Source: a virus. From it: a stretch of 58,499 nucleotides of DNA. A program made the translations under genes and the position numbers. The notes below the pieces were generated by a model, which searched no databases, was not told the DNA's origin, and saw nothing but the letters and a program-made list of their open reading frames with translations. The stretch is from the IMG/VR virus record IMGVR_UViG_3300022744_000032, positions 1-58,499 of that record; one strand, given 5' to 3'. The stretch's first letter is position 1, and the number at the start of each line of letters is the position of its first letter. Shown here piece after piece: positions 15,266-46,516 of this stretch.

Positions 15266-17851
15266 TCAAGCACTCATGGCGGTTTTGCCGCCTTCAATTA
15301 CAAACAATTTGTCCCGCCAGGAGGCTTTCGCCTTCTGTGGGCGCTCGCGGTAGCCAACCATGTCCATGATCATCTGCCCCAACCAGGCCATGGCATCCAC
15401 CTGGTCATCGTTCGTGCCACCTGCCAGGAAGCGCAGCATCTCGTCCATCAACTCGTGGACCCACGGGGCTTTATCCGGGTGGGGGAGAAGGACACGTCCT
15501 TGTCGCATCAGTCCTTGTATGGGGCGCGCACGCGCTGCCTTGTCCTGCCTGCCCGGGGGCAACTGCAGGATGTGCATGTCGTACAGGCGTTTCTTGTCGA
15601 TGGATTTCTGCATGAACGGGCCGATGGATTTCTCGATCTGGCCAGCTTCGATACCAACGATGTCCATGATCGGCCGCCATTTCATGAAGGCGTCGCAGAT
15701 GTTTTCCATGGTTTCCATGGCATCGAACTTGCCCCGGACACGGTCGAGGATGTAGATGTCATCATGCTCGTCCACGCCTGCGGTCATGCCGACGGTGTAG
15801 TTCGACAAATCGTTCGTGGTGACGGCCAAGTCCCATGCCTGGTAGCCGATCAATTTACTGGTATCAACCACATCCGGGTCGTAGAACTTGAACATTTCAC
15901 GGGTAAAGTACATCCCGGTTTCAGGGGTCGGGTTCTGCTGGAACAGGGCCGACCATTTCCGTTCACCGAGCACTTTCCGTATCCGCGCGAGGGATTTCTC
16001 GTCATACCGGTCAGGGTGAAGTGCCTCGCCTTTCTTCCGGTTCGGCTCGTCCTGGGTGGCCAGGGCAGGAAACTCGATCAGCTGCCATTTGTCCCCGCCA
16101 TTTTTCTGCTCCGCCAGTAGACGGCCACCGAGGTCATCTTCATGCCAGCGGGTCATGATCAGGATCACGCCGCCGCCGGGGGCGAGACGCGTATAAGCGT
16201 CAGAGGTGTACCAGTCCCACGCCGCTTCGCGTTGTGTCGGGCTGTCTGCATCTTCCTGACTACGGACCGGGTCATCGATCATGAGGATGTGGGCACCACG
16301 GCCGGCGATACCGGAGCCGACACCTGCGGCAAAGTACGCGCCGCCCTGCGCGGTGAACCATTCTTCTGCGGCCTGTGAATCCGGGTCCAGACGCGTGTCG
16401 AAAATCTGGTGATAGTCACTGTCCCGAAGGAGTGCCCGATTACGACGGCTGAAGCCCATCGCCAGGCCCGTGGTGTGGGACGCAGCGATCACTTCATGTT
16501 GCGGGTACTTGCCCAGGTGCCAGGCAGGAAACCGGCGTGACGCGATCTCGGAATTGTGGGTAGGGATCAGTGTCTTCCCCGCCAGGTACAGCCCGTCTTC
16601 CGAATCAACCTGGATACACTTCCCCTGAAGCCCCTGTGGTGCATAGGTTATACCTATAATCCCGCGCATGCGCTGTTTTGCAAAACGCGTAATTTGCTTC
16701 CTCGGCAGGACAGTCGGTAAAGGGAGCGTCGGTTGAAAACCGATGTAGTAACAGGTTTTTTTACCTACGACCCCGGATGTCGATGTTGTTGGTGCCGCCG
16801 CGGATACATGCGGGGCGAAGCCCAGACCGGTCAGTACCTCCACAATGTCATCGACCAGGCGTTTGTTCGCAGCGACAATCCTTACCCGGCCCGTTTTCTT
16901 ACAAACGTGCCCGTCGGTATCGACGAGCCCTGCAATCAATGCGAGCCGCTGAATAACCGAGCCCAATTTATACTCAGTAGGGATGTGTTTATTCCCCGCT
17001 ACACCAAGCGCCTTTAACTCTACCCACATCCGGCCGCTGTTATTCGGCTTCGGCCCGGCAAAACTGGTAGTAACCACACCGGTGCCTTTGTGTATCTGCT
17101 GGCTTGATATCGGATACCCCAAGGCTTCAATGGCCCGCACGACTGCCTTATCGCCCGTGCAGTGGGTGATCGCAGGTTTCTTCGACGTACCATCACCGAG
17201 CCAGGCCCCAAGGACATACGGCGGCATAGTGAACTCTTGCGCGGGAAATTTCAGACTAGAAACTTGCTGGAGCTGGTACATACAGCGGCCGCCGGGCGTA
17301 AGATCGAGCTGCTTCCTATACTTCGTGGTGCGGGTGAAATACGCAGTTTCGGCGGTTATCCACTGCTGCGCCGAACGGTGGTATACCGTCCACTCGTGGT
17401 TTTCATGACAATGGATCACACTGCCGTCTGAAAACTCAACCCGCATGTTCGCAGGTGCTTTGGCCGATGTCGCCAGCACCTTCACCGGGTGCCCGTGGGG
17501 GTGGAATACCATGTCCCCCACTTCCAGATCCCCGTGGTTTTTCCACCCGGTTGTGGTCAACACGGGTGTGTTGTCGGCCAGAAGTTTCCCGTGGCGCGGA
17601 GGCACACAGATCATGAGCCGGGGGGATTTTTTATCGGCCACGTCCTGGGAAAACTGTTCCAGGACCTCGCAGATCTGCTTATGCACCCAGCCCGCCTGAT
17701 AATTCGGGTTAAACCGCTGCACGAACGGCAGCAAGTGGCGTCGACACAGTTCCCGTGAGGCGAGTTCGGCCATCGCCCCGCGTGCGGCCGCGTTCGGCAT
17801 CGCAGTCGGCAGGTCGAGGGAAAACTCTGTCTCTTCCGGGAACAGGTCCAC
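15266..17851 (-). CDS. terL: terminase large subunit with in-frame intein
   Basis: 861 codons from a GTG at 17851. Removing an intein of 344 residues (90-433) leaves a 517-residue TerL, a normal length. The exteins join as CVPPRHGK/SEIASRRFPAW, rebuilding the Walker A motif of the packaging ATPase. Downstream, 'HILMIDDPV' near residue 535 is the Walker B strand, 'LIMTRWHEDDLGG' near 580 the coupling motif, and 'YQAWDLAVT' near 680 starts the RNase-H-like nuclease domain with its first aspartate. It acts with the small subunit (19620-20111) and the portal. Without splicing the ATPase site would be split, so packaging depends on intein excision. Confidence 0.9.
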   Translation of the reverse strand: MDLFPEETEFSLDLPTAMPNAAARGAMAELASRELCRRHLLPFVQRFNPNYQAGWVHKQICEVLEQFSQDVADKKSPRLMICVPPRHGKLLADNTPVLTTTGWKNHGDLEVGDMVFHPHGHPVKVLATSAKAPANMRVEFSDGSVIHCHENHEWTVYHRSAQQWITAETAYFTRTTKYRKQLDLTPGGRCMYQLQQVSSLKFPAQEFTMPPYVLGAWLGDGTSKKPAITHCTGDKAVVRAIEALGYPISSQQIHKGTGVVTTSFAGPKPNNSGRMWVELKALGVAGNKHIPTEYKLGSVIQRLALIAGLVDTDGHVCKKTGRVRIVAANKRLVDDIVEVLTGLGFAPHVSAAAPTTSTSGVVGKKTCYYIGFQPTLPLPTVLPRKQITRFAKQRMRGIIGITYAPQGLQGKCIQVDSEDGLYLAGKTLIPTHNSEIASRRFPAWHLGKYPQHEVIAASHTTGLAMGFSRRNRALLRDSDYHQIFDTRLDPDSQAAEEWFTAQGGAYFAAGVGSGIAGRGAHILMIDDPVRSQEDADSPTQREAAWDWYTSDAYTRLAPGGGVILIMTRWHEDDLGGRLLAEQKNGGDKWQLIEFPALATQDEPNRKKGEALHPDRYDEKSLARIRKVLGERKWSALFQQNPTPETGMYFTREMFKFYDPDVVDTSKLIGYQAWDLAVTTNDLSNYTVGMTAGVDEHDDIYILDRVRGKFDAMETMENICDAFMKWRPIMDIVGIEAGQIEKSIGPFMQKSIDKKRLYDMHILQLPPGRQDKAARARPIQGLMRQGRVLLPHPDKAPWVHELMDEMLRFLAGGTNDDQVDAMAWLGQMIMDMVGYRERPQKAKASWRDKLFVIEGGKTAMSA
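16553..17584 (-). mobile_element. class 3 intein with LAGLIDADG homing endonuclease inside TerL
   Basis: Residues 90-433 of the TerL reading frame. The intein has no Cys or Ser at position 1 (it starts Leu-Leu-Ala-Asp). It carries the class 3 'WCT' set: Trp154 after NHE in block B, Cys412 in block F (GKCIQVDS) and Thr431 in block G. It ends His432-Asn433 followed by Ser434 as +1. Two LAGLIDADG helices, 'LGAWLGDGT' near 214 and 'LIAGLVDTDGH' near 305, indicate a homing endonuclease that appears intact. In class 3 inteins the block F Cys starts splicing. Insertion between Lys89 and Ser434 of the Walker A loop is a highly conserved target site. Confidence 0.9.
16642..16658. promoter_or_regulatory. 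operator-like palindrome inside the intein coding sequence
   Basis: CATAGGTTATACCTATA matches the recurring palindrome with one end mismatch, but lies in the intein reading frame (IGITYAPQ region). On the plus strand the right arm forms TATAAT. It may be a true antisense regulatory site or a chance match. Confidence 0.45.
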
Positions 17852-25687: not shown

Positions 25688-25717
25688 TTGACAAGGAATA
25701 TAGGCACTGCCTATTAT
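25688..25717 (+). promoter_or_regulatory. sigma-70 promoter with palindromic operator, site 5
   Basis: TTGACA at 25688, an 18-base spacer, and TATTAT at 25712. The operator TATAGGCACTGCCTATT (25699-25715) covers the spacer and most of the -10 box. A bound dimer would exclude RNA polymerase. It drives the accessory and cassette region. Confidence 0.85.
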
Positions 25718-25959: not shown

Positions 25960-26160
25960 ATGGACACTACCCTGAGGCTATGCAGGAACTGTAAATACTG
26001 GGGACGCGACTACAAAGGCGTCTGCGACTTTCCAGAAGAAACAAACATCAAAAATTCCGAACACGCATTTATTCGCATCACTGTACTCGATGATTCTGAT
26101 TTGAATATTTTTCTTCATACCGGACCAGACTTCGGCTGCGTTAAATTCCAGGAGAAATAG
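25960..26160 (+). CDS. small Cys-containing hypothetical protein
   Basis: 66 residues. Cysteines at 9, 12 (CRNC), 22 and 60 recall short phage proteins with a 'C.NC.YW......G.C' layout that may bind a metal. It abuts the next ORF (one base gap) and both lie before the first attC. The ATG follows the upstream stop by one base with no clear ribosome site, so translation is probably coupled. Confidence 0.6.
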   Translation: MDTTLRLCRNCKYWGRDYKGVCDFPEETNIKNSEHAFIRITVLDDSDLNIFLHTGPDFGCVKFQEK

Positions 26161-26161
26161 T

Positions 26162-26377
26162 ATGAGCATGTACGACATTGAAATTAAAACCGAAAAGCTT
26201 GAAGAAGTATTGAAAACGCTGGCAGACGAAACTGGCGGCAGGTGCTTGGAGACTTCCGTTTTCGTCGGTGCTATACACGGTAAGCCAATACGCTTGACTG
26301 TAATGACAGCGGAAGAAGCAGAGGATTCACACGAATATGACGAAACAGACACTAGATACAACTGCATTGACGCATAA
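26162..26377 (+). CDS. hypothetical protein ending in attC1
   Basis: 71 residues, acidic, small alpha/beta composition. AGGAGAAATAGT precedes the ATG. Its TAA stop lies inside the R'' box (GCATAAC) of the first attC, as expected for an integron cassette gene. No family is recognised. Confidence 0.65.
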   Translation: MSMYDIEIKTEKLEEVLKTLADETGGRCLETSVFVGAIHGKPIRLTVMTAEEAEDSHEYDETDTRYNCIDA

Positions 26378-26427
26378 CACCGGAATTCAGCGGCGGCGAA
26401 GCCGTCCGCTGGAATGACTTGTTATGC
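26372..26427 (+). repeat. integron attC site 1
   Basis: R'' box GCATAAC at 26372 and R' box GTTATGC at 26421, 56 bp overall. The inner arms TTCAGCGG and CCGCTGGAA pair except for one extra G, the extrahelical base that sets strand choice in attC recombination. A GGC-GAA-GCC hairpin tops the stem. Confidence 0.9.
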
Positions 26428-26446
26428 GTAATGTATTGGGGTTTTT

Positions 26447-26719
26447 ATGATCGTTGGCGTAGCGGTAAAGTTTGGAGATAGCATAGAAGTGCGATTGCCG
26501 AAACCAAACCGGCATTGCCACTGCTTTTGGTATTTTGCTGAAGTAACAGGACTGGAAACTCCGCCAGCAGGATTAAAGACTGGCGGAGAAAATCAAGGCT
26601 TTTATACGCACACAGGGCGATACCTTAACAGGAAGCAGGCTTTGAAGTATGTGAAGAGAATCAAGCAGCCTGTTATTGGAAAGCCAAGAGCACATTTATT
26701 CAGTGAGGATTTGTGGTGA
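26447..26719 (+). CDS. cassette 2 ORF a, conserved phage-type protein
   Basis: 90 residues. The C-terminal half ('GFYTHTGRYLNRKQALKYVKRIKQ' ... 'LFSEDLW') matches a small protein common in phage accessory regions, where it ends with a LxSEDLW motif. Its role is unknown. The TGA overlaps the ATG of the next ORF. It belongs to the cassette between attC1 and attC2. Confidence 0.65.
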   Translation: MIVGVAVKFGDSIEVRLPKPNRHCHCFWYFAEVTGLETPPAGLKTGGENQGFYTHTGRYLNRKQALKYVKRIKQPVIGKPRAHLFSEDLW

Positions 26720-26823
26720 TGTACGGCGACGACGCTTGGAAAGTTTTAGAGATTATCAGCTATATAGTTGGAGTGCTTGCGCTGATTGGAATATATGCAC
26801 TTGGCAAATGGTTATTTACATGA
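26719..26823 (+). CDS. cassette 2 ORF b, 34-residue membrane peptide
   Basis: ATG 26719 overlaps the preceding stop (TGATG). The product has one transmembrane helix (about 10-30, EIISYIVGVLALIGIYAL) and stops two bases before the R'' box of attC2. Translational coupling and the typical membrane-peptide pattern support it. The function is unknown. Confidence 0.55.
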   Translation: MYGDDAWKVLEIISYIVGVLALIGIYALGKWLFT

Positions 26824-26824
26824 C

Positions 26825-26900
26825 GCATAACACAGAGGCAAGCCGCTGGCGAAGCCAGTCGAGCGAATGAAATGAGCGGCGCTTGGCCGACTTGTTATGT
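26825..26900 (+). repeat. integron attC site 2
   Basis: R'' GCATAAC at 26825 and R' GTTATGT at 26894, 76 bp, with imperfect internal inverted repeats around GCCGCTGGCGAAGCCAG. Confidence 0.85.
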
Positions 26901-26928
26901 ACAAACACAAAAGTTGAGAGGTTTTGAA

Positions 26929-27279
26929 ATGATCACACAACACACACCGGAGCCGTGGCCAGAGTTTAAGAAAGTGCTAAACCAGCGTTTTGGCGAGCCG
27001 CCACAGATGATGCTTGACGAAATAGACTACATCCGCGCCCGTGCCTGCGTGAACGCATGCGCAGGATTGAGCACCGAGAATCTGGAGAATAACATTCTGC
27101 TAAAGGATGGGCTGCATAGCCTCAATCAGCGCATAAGAGACGCGGAACAAAAGCATGCAGAGCTGCTTAAAGCTGTCGAGCTTGCGTATTCGGCACTCGG
27201 GTTGCCCGCTGCACGTGGATATATGGAGGCGCAGCACATACTGGAAACGGCAATTTGCGCGGCGAAAGAAAGTACATAA
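26929..27279 (+). CDS. cassette 3 ORF, HTPEPW-type phage protein
   Basis: 116 residues from ATG 26929 (GAGAGGTTTTGAA leader; the frame is open further upstream through the attC, which is not used). It opens MITQHTPEPW and contains 'RACVNACAGLSTENLEN', the hallmark of a small protein common in phages. A longer paralogue is encoded outside the array at 29190-29603. The TAA lies in the next R'' box. The function is unknown. Confidence 0.7.
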   Translation: MITQHTPEPWPEFKKVLNQRFGEPPQMMLDEIDYIRARACVNACAGLSTENLENNILLKDGLHSLNQRIRDAEQKHAELLKAVELAYSALGLPAARGYMEAQHILETAICAAKEST

Positions 27280-27327
27280 CCCAGAGCTAACCGGCGCGAA
27301 GCGTCCGAGTTGAGCGCGTTGTTATAC
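27274..27327 (+). repeat. integron attC site 3
   Basis: R'' ACATAAC at 27274 and R' GTTATAC at 27321, 54 bp. Inner arms are AGCTAACCGG and CCGAGTTGAGC, with a GC-GAA-GC top. Confidence 0.85.
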
Positions 27328-27353
27328 GGCATTTTAACCAAGAGGAAAACAAG

Positions 27354-27614
27354 ATGGCAAAGTTTAGAAAGAAACCTGTAGTAATCGAAGCGGTGAAATT
27401 TACCGGAATCAATGAAAGGCTGCACGATGAGCTAAACGAGTTTGTTGGCGCAGAACTTGAGGTGCGCGAATACAATAACTTGCTGTGTCTGGTCATCCCA
27501 ACACTAGAAGGCGAGCATATTGCAACACCAGGAGACTGGATAATTAAGGGCGTGAAAGGCGAGTGCTACCCATGCAAGCCTGACATATTCGCAGCGACAT
27601 ACGATGCCGTATAA
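27354..27614 (+). CDS. cassette 4 ORF, conserved phage protein
   Basis: 86 residues. It starts 'MAKFRKKPVVIEAVKF' and ends 'GDWIIKGVKGECYPCKPDIFAATYDAV', a widespread small phage protein of unknown role with this exact layout. AAGAGGAAAACAAG precedes ATG 27354. The TAA is inside the R'' box of attC4. Its presence in a cassette shows that typical phage genes have been packaged as integron-type units. Confidence 0.8.
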   Translation: MAKFRKKPVVIEAVKFTGINERLHDELNEFVGAELEVREYNNLLCLVIPTLEGEHIATPGDWIIKGVKGECYPCKPDIFAATYDAV

Positions 27615-27666
27615 CACTGGAGTTCAAGCGACGCCGTAGGCGGTCGCGTGCAACGACTTGTTATGC
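27609..27666 (+). repeat. integron attC site 4
   Basis: R'' GTATAAC at 27609 and R' GTTATGC at 27660, 58 bp. Inner arms are TTCAAGCGAC and GTCGCGTGCAA, with an unpaired base in the second arm. Confidence 0.9.
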
Positions 27667-27694
27667 GTAAACATTTTAACGAGAGGAAACAAAT

Positions 27695-27880
27695 ATGACA
27701 CAGCAAGAGTTTGATACAACAAAATGGAAATGCGGAATGAAGGCCGTATATAAAGGAGAAGTATATCCTGTGGCATCGTGTGATTTTGAGGAGCGCCTTG
27801 TTGGACTTTACGGTGTTGCTCTTGGAACAGATGATCATACATGGGTGCGTTGCGAGAATGTGGCGATAGTTGACGCATAA
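27695..27880 (+). CDS. cassette 5 ORF, hypothetical
   Basis: 61 residues, beta-rich, ending 'ENVAIVDA' with its TAA in the R'' box of attC5. GAGAGGAAACAAAT precedes the ATG. It resembles small cytosolic phage proteins of about 60 residues. No family is named. Confidence 0.65.
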   Translation: MTQQEFDTTKWKCGMKAVYKGEVYPVASCDFEERLVGLYGVALGTDDHTWVRCENVAIVDA

Positions 27881-27958
27881 CGACTGAGCTTAGGGGCAGG
27901 CCGACCAACGGGAGGGCTGTCCAGTGGCGAAGCCACGGCCTAGAGCGACTTGTTATGC
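27875..27958 (+). repeat. integron attC site 5
   Basis: R'' GCATAAC at 27875 and R' GTTATGC at 27952, 84 bp, the longest of the set. It has a GGCCGACC/GGCT... stem and a GTGGCGAAGCCAC hairpin. Confidence 0.85.
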
Positions 27959-27989
27959 AACACAGAATTTAACTACTAAGGTGAAACAC

Positions 27990-28292
27990 ATGTCAGACCT
28001 ACAGAAAATACCAGAGCCTATTGCGCACATGTTTCCGAGTGATATTGAGAGATTCCGCGAGTCTGAAACATTCGCACAGGCGTATTCTATAGAAGTTGGA
28101 AACCCAAATGAAACCAGCGTGGAACTTTGTTTGCAGAGCGATTTAATTTCCGCTGCTCAGAATAGCCACAAGTTTTTGATGGCACTAAAAGAGGTGCGTA
28201 ATGATGTTGACATGATGATGCGCGGAAGATTTGTGAATCTTGAAGACGTAATTAAAGAGCTTGACGCTGCTATTTCACAGACTGGTGCATAA
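27990..28292 (+). CDS. cassette 6 ORF, hypothetical
   Basis: 100 residues from ATG 27990 (AAGGTGAAACAC leader). Mostly helical and acidic, no motif recognised. The TAA is inside attC6. The frame is open upstream into the attC, but those codons are not supported by a ribosome site. Confidence 0.6.
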   Translation: MSDLQKIPEPIAHMFPSDIERFRESETFAQAYSIEVGNPNETSVELCLQSDLISAAQNSHKFLMALKEVRNDVDMMMRGRFVNLEDVIKELDAAISQTGA

Positions 28293-28334
28293 CCCAGAGC
28301 TAACCGGCTTGTCCGGTTGAGCGAGTTGTTATGC
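28287..28334 (+). repeat. integron attC site 6
   Basis: R'' GCATAAC at 28287 and R' GTTATGC at 28328, 48 bp, the shortest. AGCTAACCGG-CTTG-TCCGGTTGAGC forms the inner stem. Confidence 0.85.
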
Positions 28335-28355
28335 GTTAATAACTACGGAGGATTT

Positions 28356-28499
28356 ATGGAATTTTTTAATTGGCTTAAATGGTTTTTGTACGAATGTAGA
28401 GTGTGTAGGCACGAAGCCGGAGAGTGGAAACATTGCGAGTCTGGTATGAGAAAGATTAGACACTGCAAAAAGTGCGGCAAATGTCTTGATTTAATATGA
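28356..28499 (+). CDS. cassette 7 ORF, zinc-ribbon-like mini-protein
   Basis: 47 residues from ATG 28356 after ACGGAGGATTT. Cysteines occur as CRVC (14, 17), a single Cys (27) and CKKCGKC (37, 40, 43). With His19 and His36 they make a plausible zinc-binding knuckle. Such mini-proteins occur in phages, where some bind nucleic acid. The function is unproven. The stop is one base before attC7. Confidence 0.65.
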   Translation: MEFFNWLKWFLYECRVCRHEAGEWKHCESGMRKIRHCKKCGKCLDLI

Positions 28500-28500
28500 C

Positions 28501-28575
28501 GCATAACACCGGAGGTAAGCCGTGAACGAGCGAAGCGAAGTCCAGCCGCAGGCGACCTTGATGCGGTTGTTATAC
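28501..28575 (+). repeat. integron attC site 7
   Basis: R'' GCATAAC at 28501 and R' GTTATAC at 28569, 75 bp, with a GAGCGAAGCGAAG-type top. Confidence 0.85.
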
Positions 28576-28602
28576 GGCCACTAATTACAGGGGATTTACA
28601 CA

Positions 28603-28875
28603 ATGAAAGACGCACCACTTAACGCTCGGATTGAAGATGGTGAACTGGTTATTTCCATCGGTATTGACACTCTATGCCATGCGGTAGAAGTTGGACGAAG
28701 CTACGGAATGGGTGAAATCACGATACACAACAGGGACGTTTTTATTAAAGAGATACTGACTGAGCTTAACGACGAAAGCGAAGACGGCTCGACTATGATT
28801 CACCGGATGCTTGACGATGCTGCATCACAGGCCATCGAAAACGGCGCAGAAGGCGCGGACTACGATGCCGTATAA
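28603..28875 (+). CDS. cassette 8 ORF, hypothetical
   Basis: 90 residues, acidic, with a strand-helix start and a C-terminal helix ending 'GADYDAV'. The last seven codons, including the TAA in the R'' box, are nearly identical at DNA level to the end of the cassette 4 ORF. CAGGGGATTTACACA precedes the ATG. Small phage-type protein of unknown function. Confidence 0.65.
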   Translation: MKDAPLNARIEDGELVISIGIDTLCHAVEVGRSYGMGEITIHNRDVFIKEILTELNDESEDGSTMIHRMLDDAASQAIENGAEGADYDAV

Positions 28876-28931
28876 CACCAATTGGGCACCACTTTTGGTG
28901 TATAAAACCCTGCTGACGTATAAAACACCGT
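28870..28931 (+). repeat. decayed attC site 8
   Basis: An R'' box GTATAAC at 28870 and the following ACACC are intact, but no R' GTTATNC follows. A second, similar GTATAAAACACCG at about 28919 looks like a degenerate copy. The array therefore ends in a broken site. Confidence 0.6.
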
Positions 28932-28964
28932 GCATCAGTAGGTAAATTAAACAGATAGAAATTG

Positions 28965-28984
28965 TGGTGCAAATAAATGCACCA
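28965..28984 (+). promoter_or_regulatory. hairpin before ribosome site
   Basis: TGGTGCA-AATAAA-TGCACCA stem directly upstream of AAAGGAGG for the gene at 28996. It may modulate translation. Confidence 0.45.
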
Positions 28985-28995
28985 AAGGAGGCGGT

Positions 28996-29193
28996 ATGAA
29001 AGACAATACACCAGCGTTTCCATACCAAGTTAGTACGCAATCAGGCATGGACTTGCGCGATTACTTTGCAGCAAAGGCGATGCACTCTTTACTTATCGCG
29101 CATGCTAATAGCAGCGGATGGAGCAAAGATGCTGTTGCATCACAATCATACAAAATGGCAGACGCAATGATTGCAGAGAGGAACAAGCCATGA
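28996..29193 (+). CDS. hypothetical protein, phage accessory
   Basis: 65 residues. 'PAFPYQVSTQSGMDLRDYFAAKAMHSLL' is a well-known opening of small phage proteins ('...GMTLRDYFAAKAMQ...'), function unknown. The ATG has a strong AAAGGAGGCGGT site, and the stop overlaps the next start. First gene after the cassette array. Confidence 0.7.
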   Translation: MKDNTPAFPYQVSTQSGMDLRDYFAAKAMHSLLIAHANSSGWSKDAVASQSYKMADAMIAERNKP

Positions 29194-29603
29194 CACAGCA
29201 CACACCAGAGCCGTGGCACACAGTAGACCATAGTTGGGAATACACTGGCATATATCCGTCAGTTGGTTCACGCATTGCAGTTTGCGAGATTAACCAATCA
29301 TGCACAGAAGATAATCAGGATGAATATGAGTCTATCAATGACGCAAACGCCGCCCGCATAGTCGCCTGCGTGAATGCGTGTGCTGGTGTTGGCAATGAAA
29401 CGCTAGAAAAAATCGCATCAGGTGAAATGGACGGATCAGAAATTTTCGAGCTTGCGAAAGTTAAGCAACAGCGCGACGAGCTGCAAAAAGAGTTACTGTC
29501 ACTAGTGCGTGACATTCAATGCAGCAGTGCTAGGCAGTTTATAACCGCAGAGCGACTGAAGAAGGCTGAAACCATTGCCAAGGCGCAGGAGGCACAGTCA
29601 TGA
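29190..29603 (+). CDS. HTPEPW-type phage protein (paralogue of cassette 3 ORF)
   Basis: 137 residues from ATG 29190 overlapping the previous stop. It starts MTQHTPEPWH, contains 'ANAARIVACVNACAGVGNETLEKI' near residues 55-78 and a C-terminal coiled coil. The family is common in phages with no known function. The shorter relative inside the cassette array shares the start and the VNACAG core, so one copy may have moved by cassette formation or duplication. Confidence 0.7.
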   Translation: MTQHTPEPWHTVDHSWEYTGIYPSVGSRIAVCEINQSCTEDNQDEYESINDANAARIVACVNACAGVGNETLEKIASGEMDGSEIFELAKVKQQRDELQKELLSLVRDIQCSSARQFITAERLKKAETIAKAQEAQS

Positions 29604-29821
29604 GTTATCAGCTTACGCGCGAAGGTAACGCAATTTTTCCTGCAACCGCAACAATACGCGCAGTAATACGAGGAAACAGCATGTCAATATGCGCCAAATG
29701 CAGGCATTTGTCAGATCAGTGCACTGGGGTTTCTAAAATAACTTCTGGCAGACCGCGTATTCAGTGTGTTACCAGTTGCGATGGGTTTGAATTAGTTGAA
29801 TCTAAGGAGGTGCAGCCATGA
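29600..29821 (+). CDS. small Cys-containing hypothetical protein
   Basis: 73 residues. Cysteines in 'CAKCRHLSDQC' and a later 'CVTSC' could coordinate zinc. Overlaps of 4 bases with both neighbours make it part of a coupled series. An internal start at Met28 would give a compact Cys-rich protein. The function is unknown. Confidence 0.55.
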   Translation: MSYQLTREGNAIFPATATIRAVIRGNSMSICAKCRHLSDQCTGVSKITSGRPRIQCVTSCDGFELVESKEVQP

Positions 29822-30024
29822 GCGAACTGCAAGAGGTTAGAGCCTACGTAGAAGAAAAGTATCCGAGGGCTTGTGTGACTATCTTCCTAACCGCTGATAA
29901 GGAAGATATCACTAACGAGGAAGATCTGCTTAAAAAAGACTGGCACGTCAGTTATTATAGATCAGAAGTAGTAGACAAATATCCTGACTATACTGCTGTG
30001 CTGGCATTAGTAGAATTTTGGTAA
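29818..30024 (+). CDS. hypothetical protein
   Basis: 68 residues, acidic alpha/beta mini-protein. AAGGAGGTGCAGCC gives a strong ribosome site. No family is recognised. Confidence 0.6.
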   Translation: MSELQEVRAYVEEKYPRACVTIFLTADKEDITNEEDLLKKDWHVSYYRSEVVDKYPDYTAVLALVEFW

Positions 30025-30373: not shown

Positions 30374-30682
30374 ATGAGCGAACAAGACGAACAGATCAGG
30401 AAGAAGTTTGAGCAAGCTTTTACAGTTCCAGAAGGTGTACGCTGGTGCAATCATCAAGAAATGTATACCGCCATTGATAAGTTTAGCGAAGACGATGGAA
30501 GAAATACCGTCCTTCAAAACGCAAAGCATAAAGCATACAAAGCAGGCCGCGAGAGTGTTGTCGTGGAGTTGCCTGCTGCAGAGAAGCAGACGTCACCGTA
30601 CACATGTTATGAAAACGGGTGGAACGATATGCGGCAAGAGACTATTGAAGCAATCAAAGCAGCAGGAGGCAGAATCAAGTAA
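30374..30682 (+). CDS. hypothetical phage protein
   Basis: 102 residues from ATG 30374, helical. The C-terminus 'CYENGWNDMRQETIEAIKAAGGRIK' is a recurring ending in phage accessory proteins that follows the 'AWLAG/GWNDCR' layout. The function is unknown. It closes the accessory operon before a strong terminator. Confidence 0.65.
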   Translation: MSEQDEQIRKKFEQAFTVPEGVRWCNHQEMYTAIDKFSEDDGRNTVLQNAKHKAYKAGRESVVVELPAAEKQTSPYTCYENGWNDMRQETIEAIKAAGGRIK

Positions 30683-30685
30683 ACA

Positions 30686-30753
30686 GAACACAGCCCCCTA
30701 CGTGCAGGGGCCCAAATCCTGCCCCTGGTCAGCCACATAGGGGGCTGTTTTCT
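30686..30753 (+). terminator. strong double-hairpin terminator
   Basis: The outer stem ACAGCCCCCTACGTG pairs with CACATAGGGGGCTGT, and an inner CAGGGGC/GCCCCTG hairpin is nested inside. TTTTCTGTTTATTTT follows. This ends the accessory transcript that begins at 25.7 kb. Confidence 0.85.
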
Positions 30754-30764
30754 GTTTATTTTCC

Positions 30765-33701: not shown

Positions 33702-34137
33702 TTATCCTTCTCCAGGATGTGTATACATCAGTACGGGTGCCAACACATACCGTAATTCATGTCTATCGAGTGCTACACATATATTTTCCTGCTCGACAGG
33801 AATCTCGTGAACATAGATTGGACAGTAAGTCGGGTCTCGCGGCGCAGGAACATGCAATAACATCCTGGAGGGGGATAACTTTTTTGTTGGCTCAAGTCAG
33901 CGCCCGACGGCCGGCTGCTATGAGGTTCCCTGCTTTGACAGGCAACCGTCAAACGTCGCGAATCTGGGTTCCAGGTATCCATCGGGCGCTGACTTGAGCC
34001 AACAGAGATAATAAAAAGAAACACTATTTGGGTACTGCTACGCATACGCGTCTTGAGCGCCTATCGACGAACATACCAAAAAACCCAGTAGGGGCACTGC
34101 GCCCCGTTGATCGGGGGAGTAATAGTGTTTCCTTTTA
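33702..34137 (+). ncRNA. candidate structured RNA with three long stems
   Basis: A gene-free gap of 473 bases holds three successive long-range helices. Stem 1: 33702-33720 with 33860-33878, 19 pairs including two G-U, then six T. Stem 2: 33886-33907 with 33982-34003, 22 perfect pairs, enclosing a TTTGAC/GTCAAA hairpin. Stem 3: 34012-34028 with 34121-34137, 16 of 17 paired, enclosing GGGGC-ACTGC-GCCCC. Smaller hairpins lie inside stem 1 (33732-33754, 33787-33801). The 93-codon frame at 33719-33997 follows the repeats and is not gene-like. It could be a noncoding RNA, a long regulatory leader of the E1/JAB/E2 genes, or a DNA-level inverted-repeat element. No known RNA family is recognised. Confidence 0.65.
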
Positions 34138-34168
34138 CTATTTCCCTCAACATTTACAGGAAAAATGT

Positions 34169-34867
34169 ATGTCAGACATTTCGTTAATCCGGCACCAGGC
34201 TATTTTTGATCCGAGCCTTCATCGTATACCCGTAACCATCATCGGTTGTGGTGCGACGGGTTCACGGATTTTTGCAGCACTTGTCGAACTGGGCGTGACC
34301 AATATCACGTGCTATGACTTCGATATTGTCGAGGCGCACAACCTGGCAAACCAGATTTTTGTTCACGCCGATATCGGAAAACCAAAAGTCGCAGGATTAG
34401 TTTCCTGGTACGCTGCGAAAACTGGAACAGCTCCGCCAAAAACAATGACATTTGTCCAGGAGAAAGTCGTTCATACCACAGAGATAGACATCGAAGGACA
34501 CATTGTATTTCTGCTCACAGATTCCATGGCATCCCGACGTGAATTATTCGAATGTTTCCTGTACCACGGACACGAAAAACCCCCATTGGCTGTGATCGAA
34601 ACACGCATGGCATCAACCCACGGCAATGTCATGTGGTATCGCCCGGAAGATGAAAAACAAACCAACGCGTGGGAAGCCACATTGTCTGACGATGAATCTA
34701 CCGAATTGAGCCCTTGCGGACAACCCATGTCCGTAGGTACGACCGCGTCCATTATCGCCAACCTCGCGGTGTGGCAATTCATCCTGCTTCATGTAAACCC
34801 GGAAGCAGCGAATAGCAAAGTCGATATTTACCTTAAACCCCTCATGGTAATCACAGGAGATTTATGA
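34169..34867 (+). CDS. E1-like (ThiF/MoeB-fold) adenylating enzyme
   Basis: 232 residues from ATG 34169 (CAGGAAAAATGT leader). 'VTIIGCGATGSRIFAALVELGV' (22-43) is the nucleotide-binding GxGxxG strand-helix. Asp50/Asp52 lie in 'YDFDIVEAHNLANQ', Lys71 and Lys73 in 'GKPK', and Asp118 in 'LLTDS'. Cys183 in 'LSPCGQP' precedes a helix, as the catalytic Cys does in ThiF-type enzymes. The usual Arg of the NLxRQ motif is Asn here. E1-like enzymes adenylate the C-terminal Gly of a ubiquitin-like protein and may pass it to an E2. The neighbouring beta-grasp, JAMM and E2-like genes support this. It overlaps the JAMM gene by 4 bases. Confidence 0.85.
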   Translation: MSDISLIRHQAIFDPSLHRIPVTIIGCGATGSRIFAALVELGVTNITCYDFDIVEAHNLANQIFVHADIGKPKVAGLVSWYAAKTGTAPPKTMTFVQEKVVHTTEIDIEGHIVFLLTDSMASRRELFECFLYHGHEKPPLAVIETRMASTHGNVMWYRPEDEKQTNAWEATLSDDESTELSPCGQPMSVGTTASIIANLAVWQFILLHVNPEAANSKVDIYLKPLMVITGDL

Positions 34868-35788: not shown

Positions 35789-37939
35789 ATGCGTCGCAAA
35801 AAATTCCGTAATAGTCGACCACTACACATGATGGACACATTCCCAGTACCTTCTGCTATATTGCGTAGCGGGCCATTGTCTTTACCTGCTCCTTTATATA
35901 AAGGAAAATACTCTGTAGATATGCAAAATGCAGTAATTGCACAACAAAATTCAGAACGCGCCCTTATTACCATAGAGGAGGGTATTAATACATATTCTGA
36001 AGAGATCGACCAACAGCAAGAATTGGCGAATACCCCTATCCCACAAAATCTTCCTGAAGTTTTTGTTGACATACTAGCGAGCAACCAACGTAGAGCGCAC
36101 ACTAGCATAATGCATCTTGAAGCTCGCCGCCTAGATGGTAAAAACTCACGTATAAATGCCATCGCCGAGATAGATCTGGCGATAAAAAACCAGAGTTACT
36201 TCAGTCCAAAATGTAAAGTTATTACCTCGAGAGATATTGTGCGAACCATCCGCCAACACCCGATGGTAAGCAAAACAGCAAAGATCCGGTTTTATGATAA
36301 CTATGTTATTTTCCGCACGATACCTATTTTATTGCAACCAAACAGCAACCCATATAAATGGATAAATAACGGAGGACCAGTTGTTGTTAAACTAGCCCCG
36401 ATGATTATCAGGGTCCATACAAAAACCATGGAAATCCGCATCCAGGCAGCGGAACACGGTGGATGGCGATCTAATTCACACTGGGACTACGCACCACACC
36501 CCCATGTTTTGAACAACGGAAAACCTTGTTTTGGTGATTTCGGACCGCCGATCGCAGAAACAATCGCTGAAGGAGATTTCGCCCTTATGCTGGATGTGCT
36601 TTACGCTTTTCTGCGTACTGCAGACAGCGGTGATTCCGCAGGAAAACACTGGCCTATGTTTCTTTTACCTGCTAACTGGCAACGAGATTCCAGGATGTTC
36701 AGCAGCACGGAACGACTTACACATGAATCCGTTTTGATAAATGGCACCGAATATACCCTCCAAGTGGATGATAATGGTGCGGTTACATATACCCCCTGGG
36801 AATGGAGGATTCCGCAGAATATACTCCCTGGCGTATTTCCTGAACGTCCTTTTCTTAAATTCTGGGATGGCACCAGTCTAATAGAAACCGGGGATATCGT
36901 TATACTCAATGGCACATACCCTCGGTGTGTTGCAGTTGATAACAAGGGAACAATTTTTTATGCAGAACAAAACGATCACCCTGCGATAACTCCGCGCAGT
37001 CAATGGAAGGCCATCGACGGCAATATCAGGGTGTCATCACTTATTAATATGGCAAACAAAAAAGAGATTTGTGCACGATATATTAATGATGTTTGGCGTC
37101 GACTACACGAAACAGAAAAACTGCGTGCTACAGCCCAGCAGCGCTGGAACCAATGGTTCCATACAACTCCACAACGGCCCAGCTGGAACCCCGGGCTTGT
37201 AGAGGTACATAGCGTAGGAAATTCCCTCCTGGTGATGAAGGTATTGAAAAGCATTTCTGTGCGTACCCAAGGACCGGGTTCGCGCCTTTTGCATAAATTG
37301 CCGGGCGAAACACTTCGTTTGGCGCACGACTATGATTGGTCAAAATTTCATGTTGAACAAACAGTAGAACCGGTACTTTTGCCTCCGACCACTGAACCTC
37401 CTGCAACTGAACTCCATGTAATAGTAGGACAGGAACCCTATAGCCTACGCGCATGGAATGGAACATCCCCCCTGCAAGCAAATGATGTTGTCTGTTGGCG
37501 AACCAATCCTACAATAGAGGGGTTCTGTGTAATAGCACCCCCGGGAGAGGAGGACCGTACTAATAGTGTACGAATTCTGCGTGACGGCACACTCCCGTGG
37601 GGGATTGCCCTAACAGCAGCGGCCCCCCGCGATGGCTTCATCACTCCACCACAAGAACTCCTGGAAGAATATTGGCACCAAGTAACCTTGCAGGCTCTGA
37701 TGGCAAATAACGCGGCCCAACGCCGCGAGGCTACCGACGCCACTCAAGAACCAGCACCGCAACCTGAAGAAAACCTTATCAGCCGAGCGCAGGCACGCAT
37801 GGATGCCGCACAAGCGCATTTAGTGTACTTAACTGCTTTGCGAGATAATGGCGGGGAACCGGTTATTATTACCCCTATGGATGTGGACATTTTAGGCCGG
37901 GGCGGCATTCCAGCACCCGAATGGTGTGAGGTGTGGTAA
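35789..37939 (+). CDS. E2-like ubiquitin-conjugating protein with long C-terminal extension
   Basis: 716 residues, much longer than a bare E2. An N-terminal helical region (about 40-140) is followed by a UBC-like core: 'VVVKLAPMIIRVHTKTMEIRIQAAEHGG' (198-225), then 'HPHVLNNGKPCFGDFGPPIAE' (237-257). His237/His239 and Cys247 match the HPH...C layout of prokaryotic E2-like proteins, with Cys247 the likely thioester residue. Two copies of a 'W-D/N-GTS....D-V' unit (about 350-385 and 554-590) form a repeated extension, and a coiled coil lies near 650-690. The extension may bind targets or act as a ligase part, but that is inferred. AGGAGATTA precedes the ATG. Confidence 0.75.
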   Translation: MRRKKFRNSRPLHMMDTFPVPSAILRSGPLSLPAPLYKGKYSVDMQNAVIAQQNSERALITIEEGINTYSEEIDQQQELANTPIPQNLPEVFVDILASNQRRAHTSIMHLEARRLDGKNSRINAIAEIDLAIKNQSYFSPKCKVITSRDIVRTIRQHPMVSKTAKIRFYDNYVIFRTIPILLQPNSNPYKWINNGGPVVVKLAPMIIRVHTKTMEIRIQAAEHGGWRSNSHWDYAPHPHVLNNGKPCFGDFGPPIAETIAEGDFALMLDVLYAFLRTADSGDSAGKHWPMFLLPANWQRDSRMFSSTERLTHESVLINGTEYTLQVDDNGAVTYTPWEWRIPQNILPGVFPERPFLKFWDGTSLIETGDIVILNGTYPRCVAVDNKGTIFYAEQNDHPAITPRSQWKAIDGNIRVSSLINMANKKEICARYINDVWRRLHETEKLRATAQQRWNQWFHTTPQRPSWNPGLVEVHSVGNSLLVMKVLKSISVRTQGPGSRLLHKLPGETLRLAHDYDWSKFHVEQTVEPVLLPPTTEPPATELHVIVGQEPYSLRAWNGTSPLQANDVVCWRTNPTIEGFCVIAPPGEEDRTNSVRILRDGTLPWGIALTAAAPRDGFITPPQELLEEYWHQVTLQALMANNAAQRREATDATQEPAPQPEENLISRAQARMDAAQAHLVYLTALRDNGGEPVIITPMDVDILGRGGIPAPEWCEVW

Positions 37940-38121
37940 TGACAATCCAGGAACAGATTGCAATATTTTTCCGGAACGGCGGAGTGGGGGTTTGGTACCC
38001 CCCACACTGCTCCGCTATCCTACCTAAGCCGCCCTCTCCTACCGACAAAGAACAAAAAATCGTCCGCCCCGCTTACGTTACTGCGACCAAAGTGGAAGAC
38101 ATACTTACTTTGATCCTTTGA
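37939..38121 (+). CDS. small protein at the end of the ubiquitin-like operon
   Basis: 60 residues from ATG 37939, which overlaps the E2-like stop. Strand-helix start, Pro-rich middle (PKPPSPTDKE), hydrophobic end. No family is recognised. The coupled start suggests it belongs with the E2-like gene. Confidence 0.55.
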   Translation: MTIQEQIAIFFRNGGVGVWYPPHCSAILPKPPSPTDKEQKIVRPAYVTATKVEDILTLIL

Positions 38122-38123
38122 AA

Positions 38124-38140
38124 TATAGGTACTACCTGTT
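38124..38140 (+). promoter_or_regulatory. palindromic operator, site 8
   Basis: TATAGGTACTACCTGTT, two mismatches in the right arm. It lies 51 bases before the DNA polymerase gene and probably controls the replication operon. TTGAAA at 38118 is too close for a standard -35, so the promoter itself is unclear. Confidence 0.7.
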
Positions 38141-38190
38141 TTTCACTGAATCCGGTACACTTCTTTCTCATTGGACACAGGAGCCCGCGC

Positions 38191-40119
38191 ATGGCGGTCA
38201 TCACGCTTGATTTCGAGACCTTCTTCCGAACTGGGTACTCCCTCAGTTCTCTATCTTACGAAGAATATATTTTCCACCCTGAATTTTACGTACACAGCGT
38301 CGGGGTCAAGATCAACGACGAAACTACCCGCTATTACGCTGACAATGAAGTCCGTCCTGCCCTGCGCGAACTGTTTTTCCCCGGAAATCCGCACACATTG
38401 ATCTGCCACAACCTGATGTTCGATGGCGCAATCCTGTCCTGGTATTACGGCCTGGCAGCAAAAACGTACTGGTGCACACAGTGCATGAGTCGCGGACTCT
38501 GGCCCCAGGAGCGTACCAGTCTCGAACAACTTGCCATACGTTTATGGCCCGATAATTTATCCATGCGTAAAGGCAAGGAACTGGAAAATTTCCGTGGTGT
38601 AAAACAGCTGACCCCTGAACAGCACATAACTATGGGAGATTACTGTATCCAGGACGTGGACCTGACCTTCGCTGCAGCACGTGTCCTGGTTCCACGTATT
38701 CCGGACACAGAACTGGAAGCAATCCACTTCACGCTGTCCCGATTTTTACATCCTGTTGTTCGCGTTGACCATGCACGCCTTGTGAAATTTCTCGATGAAC
38801 ACCGGACCGAGCAAGAACGCATCATTCTGGCGGCCGGAATCTCCCCGGACTACGAGACCTCTCGCGCTATTCTGGCGAGTAATCTGAAATTCGCCGCCTG
38901 GCTCGAAAAAACCCACGGATTGGTGATTCCGAAAGTATTATCCCCGACCGCCAAAAACCCGGATAACGAGAAATTACCGCTATCAAAAGCGGACAAAGAA
39001 TTCATTGAACTGCAACTCGACCATCCTGAACTGAAACATGTCTGGATCGCCCGCATGATGGCGACCAGTAACATCGCCGAAACCCGCGCGATGCGATTGA
39101 TCGGGCACTCGTCTGTGTTTCCGAATCACCAGCTGGCCATCCCGAAACAATACTACGGGGCACACACAGGTCGCTGGTCTGGCTGCAACAAGATCAACAT
39201 GGAAAACCTCCAAGCAGGGTCACAACACCGCCTGGCGCTTATAGCACCGCCTGGCTACCGGATCGGCGTCGTGGATCTGGCCAATATCGAAGGCCGCGTT
39301 ATGGCGTGGTTCGCACAGCAACTGGACGTGTGTCAGGCATTCGCCGATAACGTCGACCTTTACGACCGGATGGCCACCGCGGTGTATGGATATGAAGTTC
39401 GCCGTAATCACGAAGTTATCGATCATGAAACCGGTAAAAAAATCAAGCCACATGCAAAAGAAGGGTTTGTTGGCAAGACGATGATCCTCGGCCTCGGCTA
39501 CGGCATGGGCGCGAAAAAGCTCCGCCACACCTTTCTTGTTGGCGGCCGCGGAGGAGAACACATGTTCTTTTCCCTCGCGGAGTGTGAACACTTTGTCCGT
39601 GTATATCGCAACGCAAATGATCGATTCGCGGCTTGCTGGGCATACGCCCAGAAAATGCTGTACCACATGACCTCCAAAGGCGAAGACCCAATCGTATGGC
39701 GCTGCCTTAAAGTCGGGTATCGATGGATAAAACTCCCCAACAATATGTACCTGAGTTATCCGAAACTGGAACGCGTGGAAGATGATCGTGGCAACATCCA
39801 GTACCAATACTGGAACGGTAAACACATGACCAGTATTCACGGCGCGAAATTGATCGAAAACATTATCCAGGCACTCAGCCGGATTATTCTGAATGACGCA
39901 CGTCGTGCTGTCACAGAACACCTTGCGCAGTACAACGATCCAAACCAGTGCGTACTGATGACCGTACACGATGAAATCGTTGCAATTCTTTCTGAAGAAA
40001 CAGTAGAAACAGACATGGACTTCATCCATGCCGCCATGAAACAAACACCAACATGGGCGGCGGATGGGCTGCTCGTATTAAACACAGCCGGGGGGCACGA
40101 TGTCTGCTACAGCAAATGA
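38191..40119 (+). CDS. DNA polymerase, family A (T7/Pol I type)
   Basis: 642 residues. The 3'-5' exonuclease domain is shown by Asp7/Glu9 (LDFET), 'CHNLMFDG' near 72 and 'YCIQDVDLTF' near 151 (Exo III). The polymerase has motif A 'VDLANIEGR' (Asp362), motif B 'KTMILGLGYGMG' (Lys429-Gly440) and motif C 'TVHDEIV' near 597. No 5'-3' exonuclease domain, as in T7 polymerase. ACAGGAGCCCGCGC precedes ATG 38191. The CsrA-like gene starts inside its last codons. This is the replicative polymerase of the phage. Confidence 0.95.
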   Translation: MAVITLDFETFFRTGYSLSSLSYEEYIFHPEFYVHSVGVKINDETTRYYADNEVRPALRELFFPGNPHTLICHNLMFDGAILSWYYGLAAKTYWCTQCMSRGLWPQERTSLEQLAIRLWPDNLSMRKGKELENFRGVKQLTPEQHITMGDYCIQDVDLTFAAARVLVPRIPDTELEAIHFTLSRFLHPVVRVDHARLVKFLDEHRTEQERIILAAGISPDYETSRAILASNLKFAAWLEKTHGLVIPKVLSPTAKNPDNEKLPLSKADKEFIELQLDHPELKHVWIARMMATSNIAETRAMRLIGHSSVFPNHQLAIPKQYYGAHTGRWSGCNKINMENLQAGSQHRLALIAPPGYRIGVVDLANIEGRVMAWFAQQLDVCQAFADNVDLYDRMATAVYGYEVRRNHEVIDHETGKKIKPHAKEGFVGKTMILGLGYGMGAKKLRHTFLVGGRGGEHMFFSLAECEHFVRVYRNANDRFAACWAYAQKMLYHMTSKGEDPIVWRCLKVGYRWIKLPNNMYLSYPKLERVEDDRGNIQYQYWNGKHMTSIHGAKLIENIIQALSRIILNDARRAVTEHLAQYNDPNQCVLMTVHDEIVAILSEETVETDMDFIHAAMKQTPTWAADGLLVLNTAGGHDVCYSK

Positions 40120-40324
40120 TGTAAAACACCTTTTTATCCACCGCGGGGAAAACCAGTCGATGTTGATCAAAGTCGCCGACGTAGAATTCACAATCGGTGT
40201 ATCCAGCTTCAATATCAACCGGCGTAATGTTACGTTAAGCATCCGTGCGCCGAAATCTGTCAGTGTAACCCGCACTGAAACGCTCCTTTCTAACCAGGCA
40301 AACGGTGGAGCCCATGGCGAATGA
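40100..40324 (+). CDS. CsrA/RsmA-like RNA-binding protein
   Basis: 74 residues. The alignment to CsrA is convincing by eye: 'LFIHRGENQSMLI' replaces the first CsrA strand (LILTRRVGETLMI), and 'NVTLSIRAPKSVSVTRTE' matches 'QVRIGVNAPKEVSVHREE', with Arg58 at the position of the RNA-contacting Arg44. CsrA dimers bind GGA in leader hairpins and block or stabilise mRNAs. A phage copy could rewire host carbon, biofilm and virulence mRNAs or control phage leaders, many of which carry AGGA next to a hairpin. It sits between polymerase and primase genes, overlapping both. Confidence 0.75.
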   Translation: MSATANDVKHLFIHRGENQSMLIKVADVEFTIGVSSFNINRRNVTLSIRAPKSVSVTRTETLLSNQANGGAHGE

Positions 40325-42776: not shown

Positions 42777-42788
42777 GTACTACCTATA
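42772..42788 (+). promoter_or_regulatory. palindromic operator overlapping a start codon, site 9
   Basis: CATAGGTACTACCTATA, with its last base the A of the ATG at 42788. Bound protein could block translation-independent initiation of a leaderless transcript or an internal promoter. No clear -35 is seen. Confidence 0.65.
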
Positions 42789-43552
42789 TGACGTACACTC
42801 CTCCAGGGCCGGTATTCCAACCCGGCGTAAAATTGTCGATCCAGGATATCGCCCCGGATGCACAAAGTGGACTCGTAAAATCGTGGAGTTATTCCACGTT
42901 GAAAAAATTCGAGCAATGCCCCTATGCCGTATTTTTGTCCAAAGTTAAAAAGATACCTACGGAACAAGGCGAAGCCGCCGCTCGCGGGGAACGGATTCAC
43001 TTGCTGGGTGAACAATTCATCAAAGGTGAGTTAGAGGAATTCCCGGAAGAATTCAAACGCTACCGCGCGGGGCTCGAAAACCTGCGCGACCAATTCAATA
43101 TAGGCATGGCACGTGCCGAAGACGAATGGGCATTTACGTCAACCCTCACTCCCACGCTATGGACTGCCCCAGATGCCTGGTGCCGCATGAAACTGGACGC
43201 GCTGGAATTCAACGACGACACCTGCGTCACGGTTACAGATTTCAAGACCGGCCGTAAATTCGGCAACGAAATGGCACACGGACAGCAGTTACAGCTGTAT
43301 GCGATCGCAACATGTTGGACCTACCCCCAAGTCGAATACATCAAAACGCAGTGCTGGTATCTGGACCGGGACGAAGGCCCACTTAAACAAGAATACACCC
43401 GGACAGAAGCTCTCAGTTTTCAACCCCGGTGGACACAACGCGCGTTGAATTTAACCACGACCGTGAAATTTCCCCCGCAGCCTTCAAAAAATAATTGCCG
43501 GTGGTGTGATTTCGCTAAAAACGAAACATGCGAATGGAGATATCGACAATGA
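42788..43552 (+). CDS. RecB/Cas4-type PD-(D/E)XK exonuclease with Fe-S cysteines
   Basis: 254 residues. 'SWSYSTLKKFEQCPYAVFL' (32-50) is the usual start of the RecB/Cas4 nuclease fold. Active-site residues are Asp137 (KLDALE), Asp151 and Lys153 (TDFKTGR), and Gln167 (QLQLYA). Cys44 with the C-terminal 'CRWCDFAKNETC' set makes the four-Cys iron-sulphur cluster known from AddB and Cas4. It probably acts in phage recombination or end processing. No ribosome site is evident because the operator abuts the start, so the transcript may be leaderless or coupled. Confidence 0.85.
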   Translation: MTYTPPGPVFQPGVKLSIQDIAPDAQSGLVKSWSYSTLKKFEQCPYAVFLSKVKKIPTEQGEAAARGERIHLLGEQFIKGELEEFPEEFKRYRAGLENLRDQFNIGMARAEDEWAFTSTLTPTLWTAPDAWCRMKLDALEFNDDTCVTVTDFKTGRKFGNEMAHGQQLQLYAIATCWTYPQVEYIKTQCWYLDRDEGPLKQEYTRTEALSFQPRWTQRALNLTTTVKFPPQPSKNNCRWCDFAKNETCEWRYRQ

Positions 43553-43604
43553 TCTGGCTGGTTGAGTTACGCCTACACCTTGTTGAATTCCAACAGGAGT
43601 AAAT

Positions 43605-43751
43605 ATGGAAACTATCTACATCACTTGTGAAAACGGCGTCGTCACCGGAGTGTACACAACTACTCCACGGCACGATGTTGATGTCCAGGTTATTAACCTC
43701 GACACCACGCCCTCTGCAGTAGTTCCTGAAAGCGCATACCAACTTTATTGA
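43605..43751 (+). CDS. 48-residue hypothetical protein
   Basis: METIYITCENGVVTGVYTTT... is beta-rich and resembles a short conserved protein found near recombination genes of podoviruses. AACAGGAGTAAAT gives a good ribosome site. A 17-codon frame at 43549-43602 between this gene and the nuclease may simply couple them. The function is unknown. Confidence 0.6.
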   Translation: METIYITCENGVVTGVYTTTPRHDVDVQVINLDTTPSAVVPESAYQLY

Positions 43752-43758
43752 GGATTTT

Positions 43759-44169: not shown

Positions 44170-44170
44170 T

Positions 44171-44353
44171 ATGGACTATGGCTGGGTACGACAAGCAGAG
44201 ACACTGGCACTACTGAACGAATGCAAACTCGCTTTGTATGAAATCAAAAACACACGGTTACGTGCAACAGCCAGTAAAGATACCTACGAACTGGTAAAGA
44301 AAATCGAAAATTTCCTGGAGAAAAAAGATGTCAACGTACCGCCAGAATCTTGA
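44171..44353 (+). CDS. small helical protein
   Basis: 60 residues, one long amphipathic helical region and a Lys-rich end. It starts 1 base after the preceding stop and overlaps the next gene by 26 bases. No family is recognised. Confidence 0.55.
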   Translation: MDYGWVRQAETLALLNECKLALYEIKNTRLRATASKDTYELVKKIENFLEKKDVNVPPES

Positions 44354-46477: not shown

Positions 46478-46516
46478 TTGCATTTTTGCAAAACCCGCGG
46501 TAATCTCGCTGCACAG

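Follow-up and report, generated by a model that had tools for sequence, protein, structure and literature searches.

An integrase-less attC array with inverted cassette genes in a temperate tailed phage genome

The IMG/VR record IMGVR_UViG_3300022744_000032 (58,499 bases, classed as linear; its whole length is called the window here) contains, between positions 26372 and 28908, small plus-strand genes alternating with imperfect palindromes edged by GCATAAC-type and GTTATGC-type boxes. Seven of the palindromes, spanning 26372-28575, are integron attC sites, and a remnant extends the array to 28908. All seven cassettes are inverted: the genes lie on the plus strand and the attC sites on the minus strand, each attC site standing before its own gene. 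We consider it likely that this is a phage cassette array of the CALIN type (cluster of attC sites lacking an integrase), composed of phage genes inverted to their attC sites within an accessory operon and recombined in trans by an integron integrase (IntI) of the host.

In the window are genes for the portal protein, TerL, the major head protein and the tail, together with those for a DNA polymerase, a helicase and a phage-type integrase, and by this gene content the source is a temperate tailed phage. An initial annotation, made from the sequence alone, had described an integrase-less attC cluster inside a phage genome, which was confirmed as the portal, TerL, major head protein, DNA polymerase and integrase genes are on the same contig as the sites. 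The sole tyrosine recombinase (49690-50664, minus strand) scored 12.4 bits with TIGR02249, for which the cut-off is 265; with this profile no integron integrase was found in the window, again in agreement with the initial annotation, the contig being possibly incomplete. At least two attC sites within a few kb and no intI gene on the contig, as found here, define a CALIN, and Qi et al. likewise used at least two sites per CALIN (PMC9892861); the intI gene that marks a complete integron was not found.

Identity and strand of the attC sites

A regular expression with complementary outer boxes found six sites in the window versus 0.13 expected per 3 kb strand; the site that it missed, at 27274-27327, has boxes complementary at five of seven positions. 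Covariance models were built from a seed of 10 attC sites (R1) and from 83 attC sites collected with R1 (R2); the sites came from plasmids with class 1 integrons and 20 chromosomal regions adjoining intI genes, and neither model includes window sequence. Validation of the strand assignment placed 83 of 83 matches at E ≤ 0.001 on the array strand predicted from the position of attI1 or intI. With R2, six sites in the window scored 33 to 61 bits (E 5e-13 to 6e-6, all E-values being rough) and the seventh, at 28501-28575, scored 15.8 bits (E 0.14), every one of these matches being on the minus strand; at the seven sites the plus strand reached a maximum of 16.5 bits. The seven sites proposed in the initial annotation, which had suggested such a covariance scan, were thereby located where it had placed them by R1 and R2, six of them also by the regular expression, and its decayed eighth site corresponds to the remnant at 28870-28908, in which the R' box is intact.

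The polarity had, however, been read backwards: the boxes had been seen correctly, but the attC sites are on the minus strand and the plus-strand genes are antisense to them. The canonical order R'', L'' (with two extrahelical bases), L', R' reads on the minus strand, and the extrahelical bases belong to the L'' side, which is 3' on the plus and 5' on the minus strand, as is evident when those of the minus-strand site 26427-26372 (GCATAACAAGTCATTCCAGCGGACGGCTTCGCCGCCGCTGAATTCCGGTGTTATGC) are compared with those of a bacterial site (GCCTAACAAGTCAATGCAGCGGACGGCGTACCGCCGCCGCTGATTTCCAGCGTTAGGC). Taken together, the extrahelical bases and the minus-strand scores indicate that the plus strand, i.e. 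the coding strand of the genes, is the recombinogenic bottom strand. When the two strands were compared, the difference in fold energy was small for most sites, so that energy alone does not set the polarity, which is set by the extrahelical bases. A site-like match at 317-396 (18 bits, E 0.04) lies inside a structural gene and was taken as a chance match. With strict attC patterns in the plus-strand reading, the matches were confined to unrelated repeats (L009, L010), and 257 Gb of genomes held none; Rfam gave no match.

On the minus strand the remnant is followed by direct repeats (GTTTTATAC), and the right border consists of these repeats and an R'-type GTTATAC; the remnant and the repeats are a candidate attI equivalent. 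Read in the attC direction, from right to left, the array runs from the R'-type box at 28870-28876 to 26372, and from the attI-equivalent end its seven cassettes measure, cut to cut, 369, 214, 412, 266, 335, 449 and 453 bp (Table 1). Each unit of 214-453 bp holds one gene and one attC site, as is characteristic of an integron gene cassette, with a second tiny open reading frame (ORF) in one of the seven. On the plus strand the attC site occupies the 5' leader and is followed by a ribosome-binding site and the gene. In five cassettes out of seven the gene ends in a TAA that falls within the next R' box, the codon being complementary to the bases with which this box begins and its last base being that of the cassette (GCATAA/C, the slash marking the cut); the remaining two genes end in TGA a few bases upstream of the R' box. 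The usual, though not obligatory, orientation, in which the gene is sense to attC and expressed from the integron promoter Pc, was absent, with 7/7 cassettes inverted.

Table 1. Positions of attC sites, cassette genes and associated features in the window
Feature	Coordinates	Strand	Remarks
Sigma-70-like promoter TTGACA-18-TATTAT	25688..25717	+	11/12 consensus; upstream of the accessory operon containing the array
Phage gene beyond last attC	26162..26377	+	TAA stop inside R' box of attC 26372-26427
attC 1, 56 bp	26372..26427	-	R2 61.2 bits, E 5e-13; 16.5 bits on plus
Cassette 7 from attI-equivalent end (attC 1 + two genes)	26378..26830		R' cut points GCATAA/C
Cassette gene, 90 aa	26447..26719	+	PHROG 839, E 3.8e-10
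Second small ORF of cassette 7, 36 aa, hydrophobic, GTG start	26713..26823	+	ORF only, without homology support
attC 2, 76 bp	26825..26900	-	R2 33.1 bits
Cassette gene, 116 aa (MITQHTPEPW...)	26929..27279	+	Start in common with non-cassette gene at 29190
attC 3, 54 bp	27274..27327	-	R2 43.2 bits
Cassette gene, 86 aa	27354..27614	+	PHROG 419/1810/4502, widespread phage family, E 2.6e-33
attC 4, 58 bp	27609..27666	-	R2 46.0 bits
Cassette gene, 61 aa	27695..27880	+	No match
attC 5, 84 bp	27875..27958	-	R2 40.2 bits
Cassette gene, 100 aa	27990..28292	+	No match
attC 6, 48 bp	28287..28334	-	R2 43.0 bits; near-identical site in contig L269
Cassette gene, 47 aa, possibly CxxC zinc-ribbon-like	28356..28499	+	Weak, E 0.008
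attC 7, 75 bp	28501..28575	-	R2 15.8 bits, E 0.14; R'' and R' boxes intact
Cassette gene, 90 aa	28603..28875	+	PHROG 31817/21508, E 1.5e-12
Remnant palindrome	28870..28908	-	R' box intact (= stop codon of last gene); from sequence, not scored by models

Cassette polarity in other phages and in bacteria

Further arrays were obtained by scanning IMG/VR with attC-motif patterns and scoring with R2. Inverted arrays without an integrase were present in two circularly complete IMG/VR phages, in Pseudoalteromonas phage H101, in MW202573 and in others. G240 (127 bp terminal repeats) carries two arrays on opposite genome strands, both inverted to their genes, and the arrays of G242 (99-bp terminal repeats), G239, L266/L267, L277, L278 (which includes a methyltransferase gene with a DPPY motif), L281 and L284 are inverted as well. 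H101 has attC on the plus strand and its annotated genes on the minus strand, and MW202573 has attC on the minus strand and its annotated genes on the plus strand. No IntI was found in any of the inverted phages.

Among clear polarity calls, 0 phage cassettes were sense and 23 inverted versus 63 and 7, respectively, in bacteria (Fisher 5e-16, a value that treats the cassettes of one array as independent, which they are not); the phage count comprises the window, the first two scans, H101 and MW202573, with the Tetrasphaera phage TJE1 left out. In later contigs without IntI, outside this count, there were eight inverted calls and two clear sense ones, L276 and L279 each contributing one of the latter. 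At 30 of 46 phage sites, versus 5 of 58 bacterial sites, the TAA of the R' box closed an antisense ORF of 50 codons or more. Phages and contigs bearing IntI were sense, namely G266 (11 of 13), Vibrio p16 and Shewanella M16-3, and in bacteria whose attC sites are of the same type the genes beside them were mostly sense. G266 (IMGVR_UViG_2834908352_000001) carries at 37564-48222 a complete integron, with IntI, 18 attC matches and sense cassettes, at one end of a viral contig that derives from an isolate, and this integron is probably host chromosome beside a prophage. Judged from these genome sequences, the inverted design recurs in several unrelated integrase-less phages and is not the quirk of one phage.

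Phage CALINs have already been published (Qi et al., 2023; PMC9892861). The inverted genes of H101 and MW202573 are not mentioned there, and no report of inverted polarity was found among open-licence papers, which is weak evidence of novelty. Like the window, H101 (PH101) and MW202573 carry attC clusters without IntI that are detected by R2 (three and five sites, respectively, as compared with seven and the remnant in the window), with genes opposite to attC. The CALIN of TJE1 resembles that of the window as an integrase-less phage array, but its genes are sense, in the bacterial orientation. Sedentary chromosomal integrons and the IntI-bearing prophages (Vibrio p16, Shewanella M16-3, G266) share the attC architecture and have similar sequences, but differ from the window in that IntI is present and the genes are mostly sense, and the sampled bacterial cargo is not phage-typical. 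P12002L, a published phage CALIN, gave no R2 match.

Two of the other contigs showed repeats of their own. Besides attC sites, L265 has a distinct intergenic repeat of about 36-46 nt at 5400-9750, in many copies between small genes, and L263 (G239) has at 3641-4295 a tandem duplication of 309 bp (98%) in a block between two attC sites.

Proposed exchange in trans and alternative explanations

Twenty TerL relatives of the window phage (18 IMG/VR contigs, phiA008 and KPP25; about 42-52% identity) gave no attC match better than E 0.3, and the array is therefore not ancestral to that lineage. The carriers of arrays are largely unrelated, having few genes in common at ∼30% identity, and their attC sites are 80-96% alike between phages over 50-75 bp. 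Mobility is indicated indirectly: the region of attC 6 (28287-28351) recurs in L269 (87% over 69 bp), that of attC 7 (28529-28576) in an attC site of G240 (87% over 52 bp), and one attC is common to both G240 arrays (94%). Cassettes recur too: one of G240 in L265 (81% over 47 aa), a G240 cassette gene in G242 (50%) and an L278 cassette gene in MW202573 (81% DNA). The comparison of related phages suggested in the initial annotation, with gain or loss of cassettes as its expected outcome, was thus answered in part, since the array is missing from the TerL relatives and sites and single cassettes recur in unrelated phages, but no change was seen in the pair G258/L267. Its proposal that the phage may swap genes through a host chromosomal integron was not supported in that form: the genes are misoriented for the integron promoter, bacterial integrons yielded none of the cassette genes, and 0/10 bacterial antisense cassettes had a PHROG match, so that the notion of these being captured phage cassettes is not supported either. 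Cassette homologues were found in 1 of 274 host genomes, at 40% identity. On sequence comparison, traffic from phage to phage appears better supported than exchange with a host chromosomal integron.

We infer that a host IntI would act in trans on the folded bottom strand of attC, here the coding strand, and that cassettes would be traded mainly among phages of like handedness. Insertion at attC would preserve attC polarity and, in an inverted phage array, only inverted genes would be expressed and kept, so that the phage pool would remain inverted and apart from the bacterial pool; in the phage a cassette of bacterial origin would be antisense, and in an integron one of phage origin would be antisense to Pc. 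Transcription would displace the coding strand, which would also be the lagging-strand template if gene and fork are co-directional, and through the freeing of this strand inversion may raise recombination. In Vibrio cholerae, moving attC bottom strands to the lagging template strongly increased excision (PMC11023631). Both tested H101 sites recombine with IntI1, the bottom strand being preferred (PMC9892861), so that the sites of one inverted phage array, at the least, are functional in the polarity assigned here. More tentatively, and with somewhat less than even confidence, we suggest that phages might keep an opposite-handed cassette pool, recombined by host IntI but expressed in phage operons only, attC polarity acting as a one-bit barrier between the pools and operon transcription coupling infection to exchange. 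Phage CALINs have so far been read as a cassette route between phages and bacterial integrons. If inversion is systematic in phage cassettes, neither a phage cassette captured by an integron nor a bacterial cassette in a phage would be expressed, and the two pools would be largely isolated despite a common enzyme, which would alter the view of integron-phage traffic; it would also provide a simple sequence test for the phage origin of cassettes and open both cassette origin and the significance of attC strand choice to direct tests.

Several observations weigh against an inverted phage array recombined by a host IntI. TJE1, a sense array without IntI, is an exception, and L269, L276 and L279 are ambiguous in polarity as arrays. 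The search patterns for phage arrays drew in part on sites of the window itself, which biases the sample to similar attC, and the polarity calls of uncultivated phages were mostly made from the longest ORFs. Of 229 genomes sampled in the class to which a Pseudomonas genome belongs, 84 have the IntI that is presumed for the host. The sole close pair, G258/L267, carries the same cassette without change, and neither recombination, junction polymorphism nor cassette gain or loss was seen between close relatives.

Some of these features would be expected if a once-working attC block moved passively between phages by homologous recombination at repeats, its polarity reflecting shared descent from one or few inverted ancestors and not selection or current IntI activity. 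The 80-96% similarity of attC sites between phages, the one cassette kept by G258/L267 and the failure to find IntI in the array phages agree with such passive spread. We nevertheless hold it to be unlikely, as the carriers are largely unrelated, the boxes, the extrahelical bases and the stop-codon register are kept while the inner stems vary, and the sites of H101, one such array, are active with IntI1 (PMC9892861). The hairpins might instead be kept for a role in RNA, such as gene insulation, mRNA processing or attenuation, with recombination incidental, and indeed every hairpin lies in the 5' leader of its gene and attC sites are thought to hold weak terminators (PMC9892861). An RNA hairpin, however, requires neither R''/R' boxes nor one-sided extrahelical bases, whereas both are conserved here and match bacterial attC on one strand only, and a terminator-like T run follows 0 of the sites on the plus strand, which makes this explanation very improbable. 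Folded single strands are known Xer substrates, as in CTX phage, and with a phage tyrosine integrase encoded in cis (49690-50664) either this enzyme or the host XerCD might recombine the sites; that integrase, however, shares 45-51% identity with many proteobacterial integrases of a common prophage family, is unlinked to attC arrays and is not IntI, and we rate its involvement, or that of XerCD, as more improbable still. That a piece of a bacterial integron was joined to the phage contig during assembly is scarcely credible, even for an uncultivated contig without a close relative, given the phage-type cargo, the polarity opposite to bacterial arrays, the co-directional phage genes on the flanks and the recurrence of this design in G240 and G242, both with terminal repeats, and in the GenBank phage H101.

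Cassette genes and the surrounding genome

Phage-type cargo, as anticipated in the initial annotation, was indicated by PHROG matches in three of the seven cassettes; the others are orphans, one of them encoding a possible zinc ribbon. PADLOC detected no defence genes among the cassettes. The 5' DNA of the cassette gene at 26929 (MITQHTPEPW...) and of the non-cassette gene at 29190 (MTQHTPEPW...) is 89% alike over 28 nt, as though a gene resident in the phage also existed in cassette form.

The array lies within a plus-strand accessory operon, in the same direction as the flanking phage genes. The putative promoter upstream of this operon is a consensus match only, total promoter matches in the scan not being above those in shuffled sequences. 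GC skew is positive (+0.12 to +0.14) across 26000-30000, which takes in the array with the flank to its right, whereas almost everywhere else in the window it is not. An inverted repeat with 28-nt arms (89% complementary) and a 29-nt spacer is located at 30677-30761, immediately to the right of the accessory region.

Among named phages, the window phage is nearest by TerL to Aeromonas phage phiA008 and the KPP25 group (about 42-50% identity), and no close relatives were found with TerL, with a large replication-region protein or by megablast of the right half. A ThiF-family (E1-like adenylating) protein is encoded at 34028-34867, adjoining the replication genes. TerL itself (15266-17851, minus strand) has within its Walker A motif an intein-like insertion of about 345 residues, which is absent from its relatives; the insertion matches LAGLIDADG_3, ends C-terminally in THN/S and has at its N-terminus apparently Leu, not Cys or Ser.

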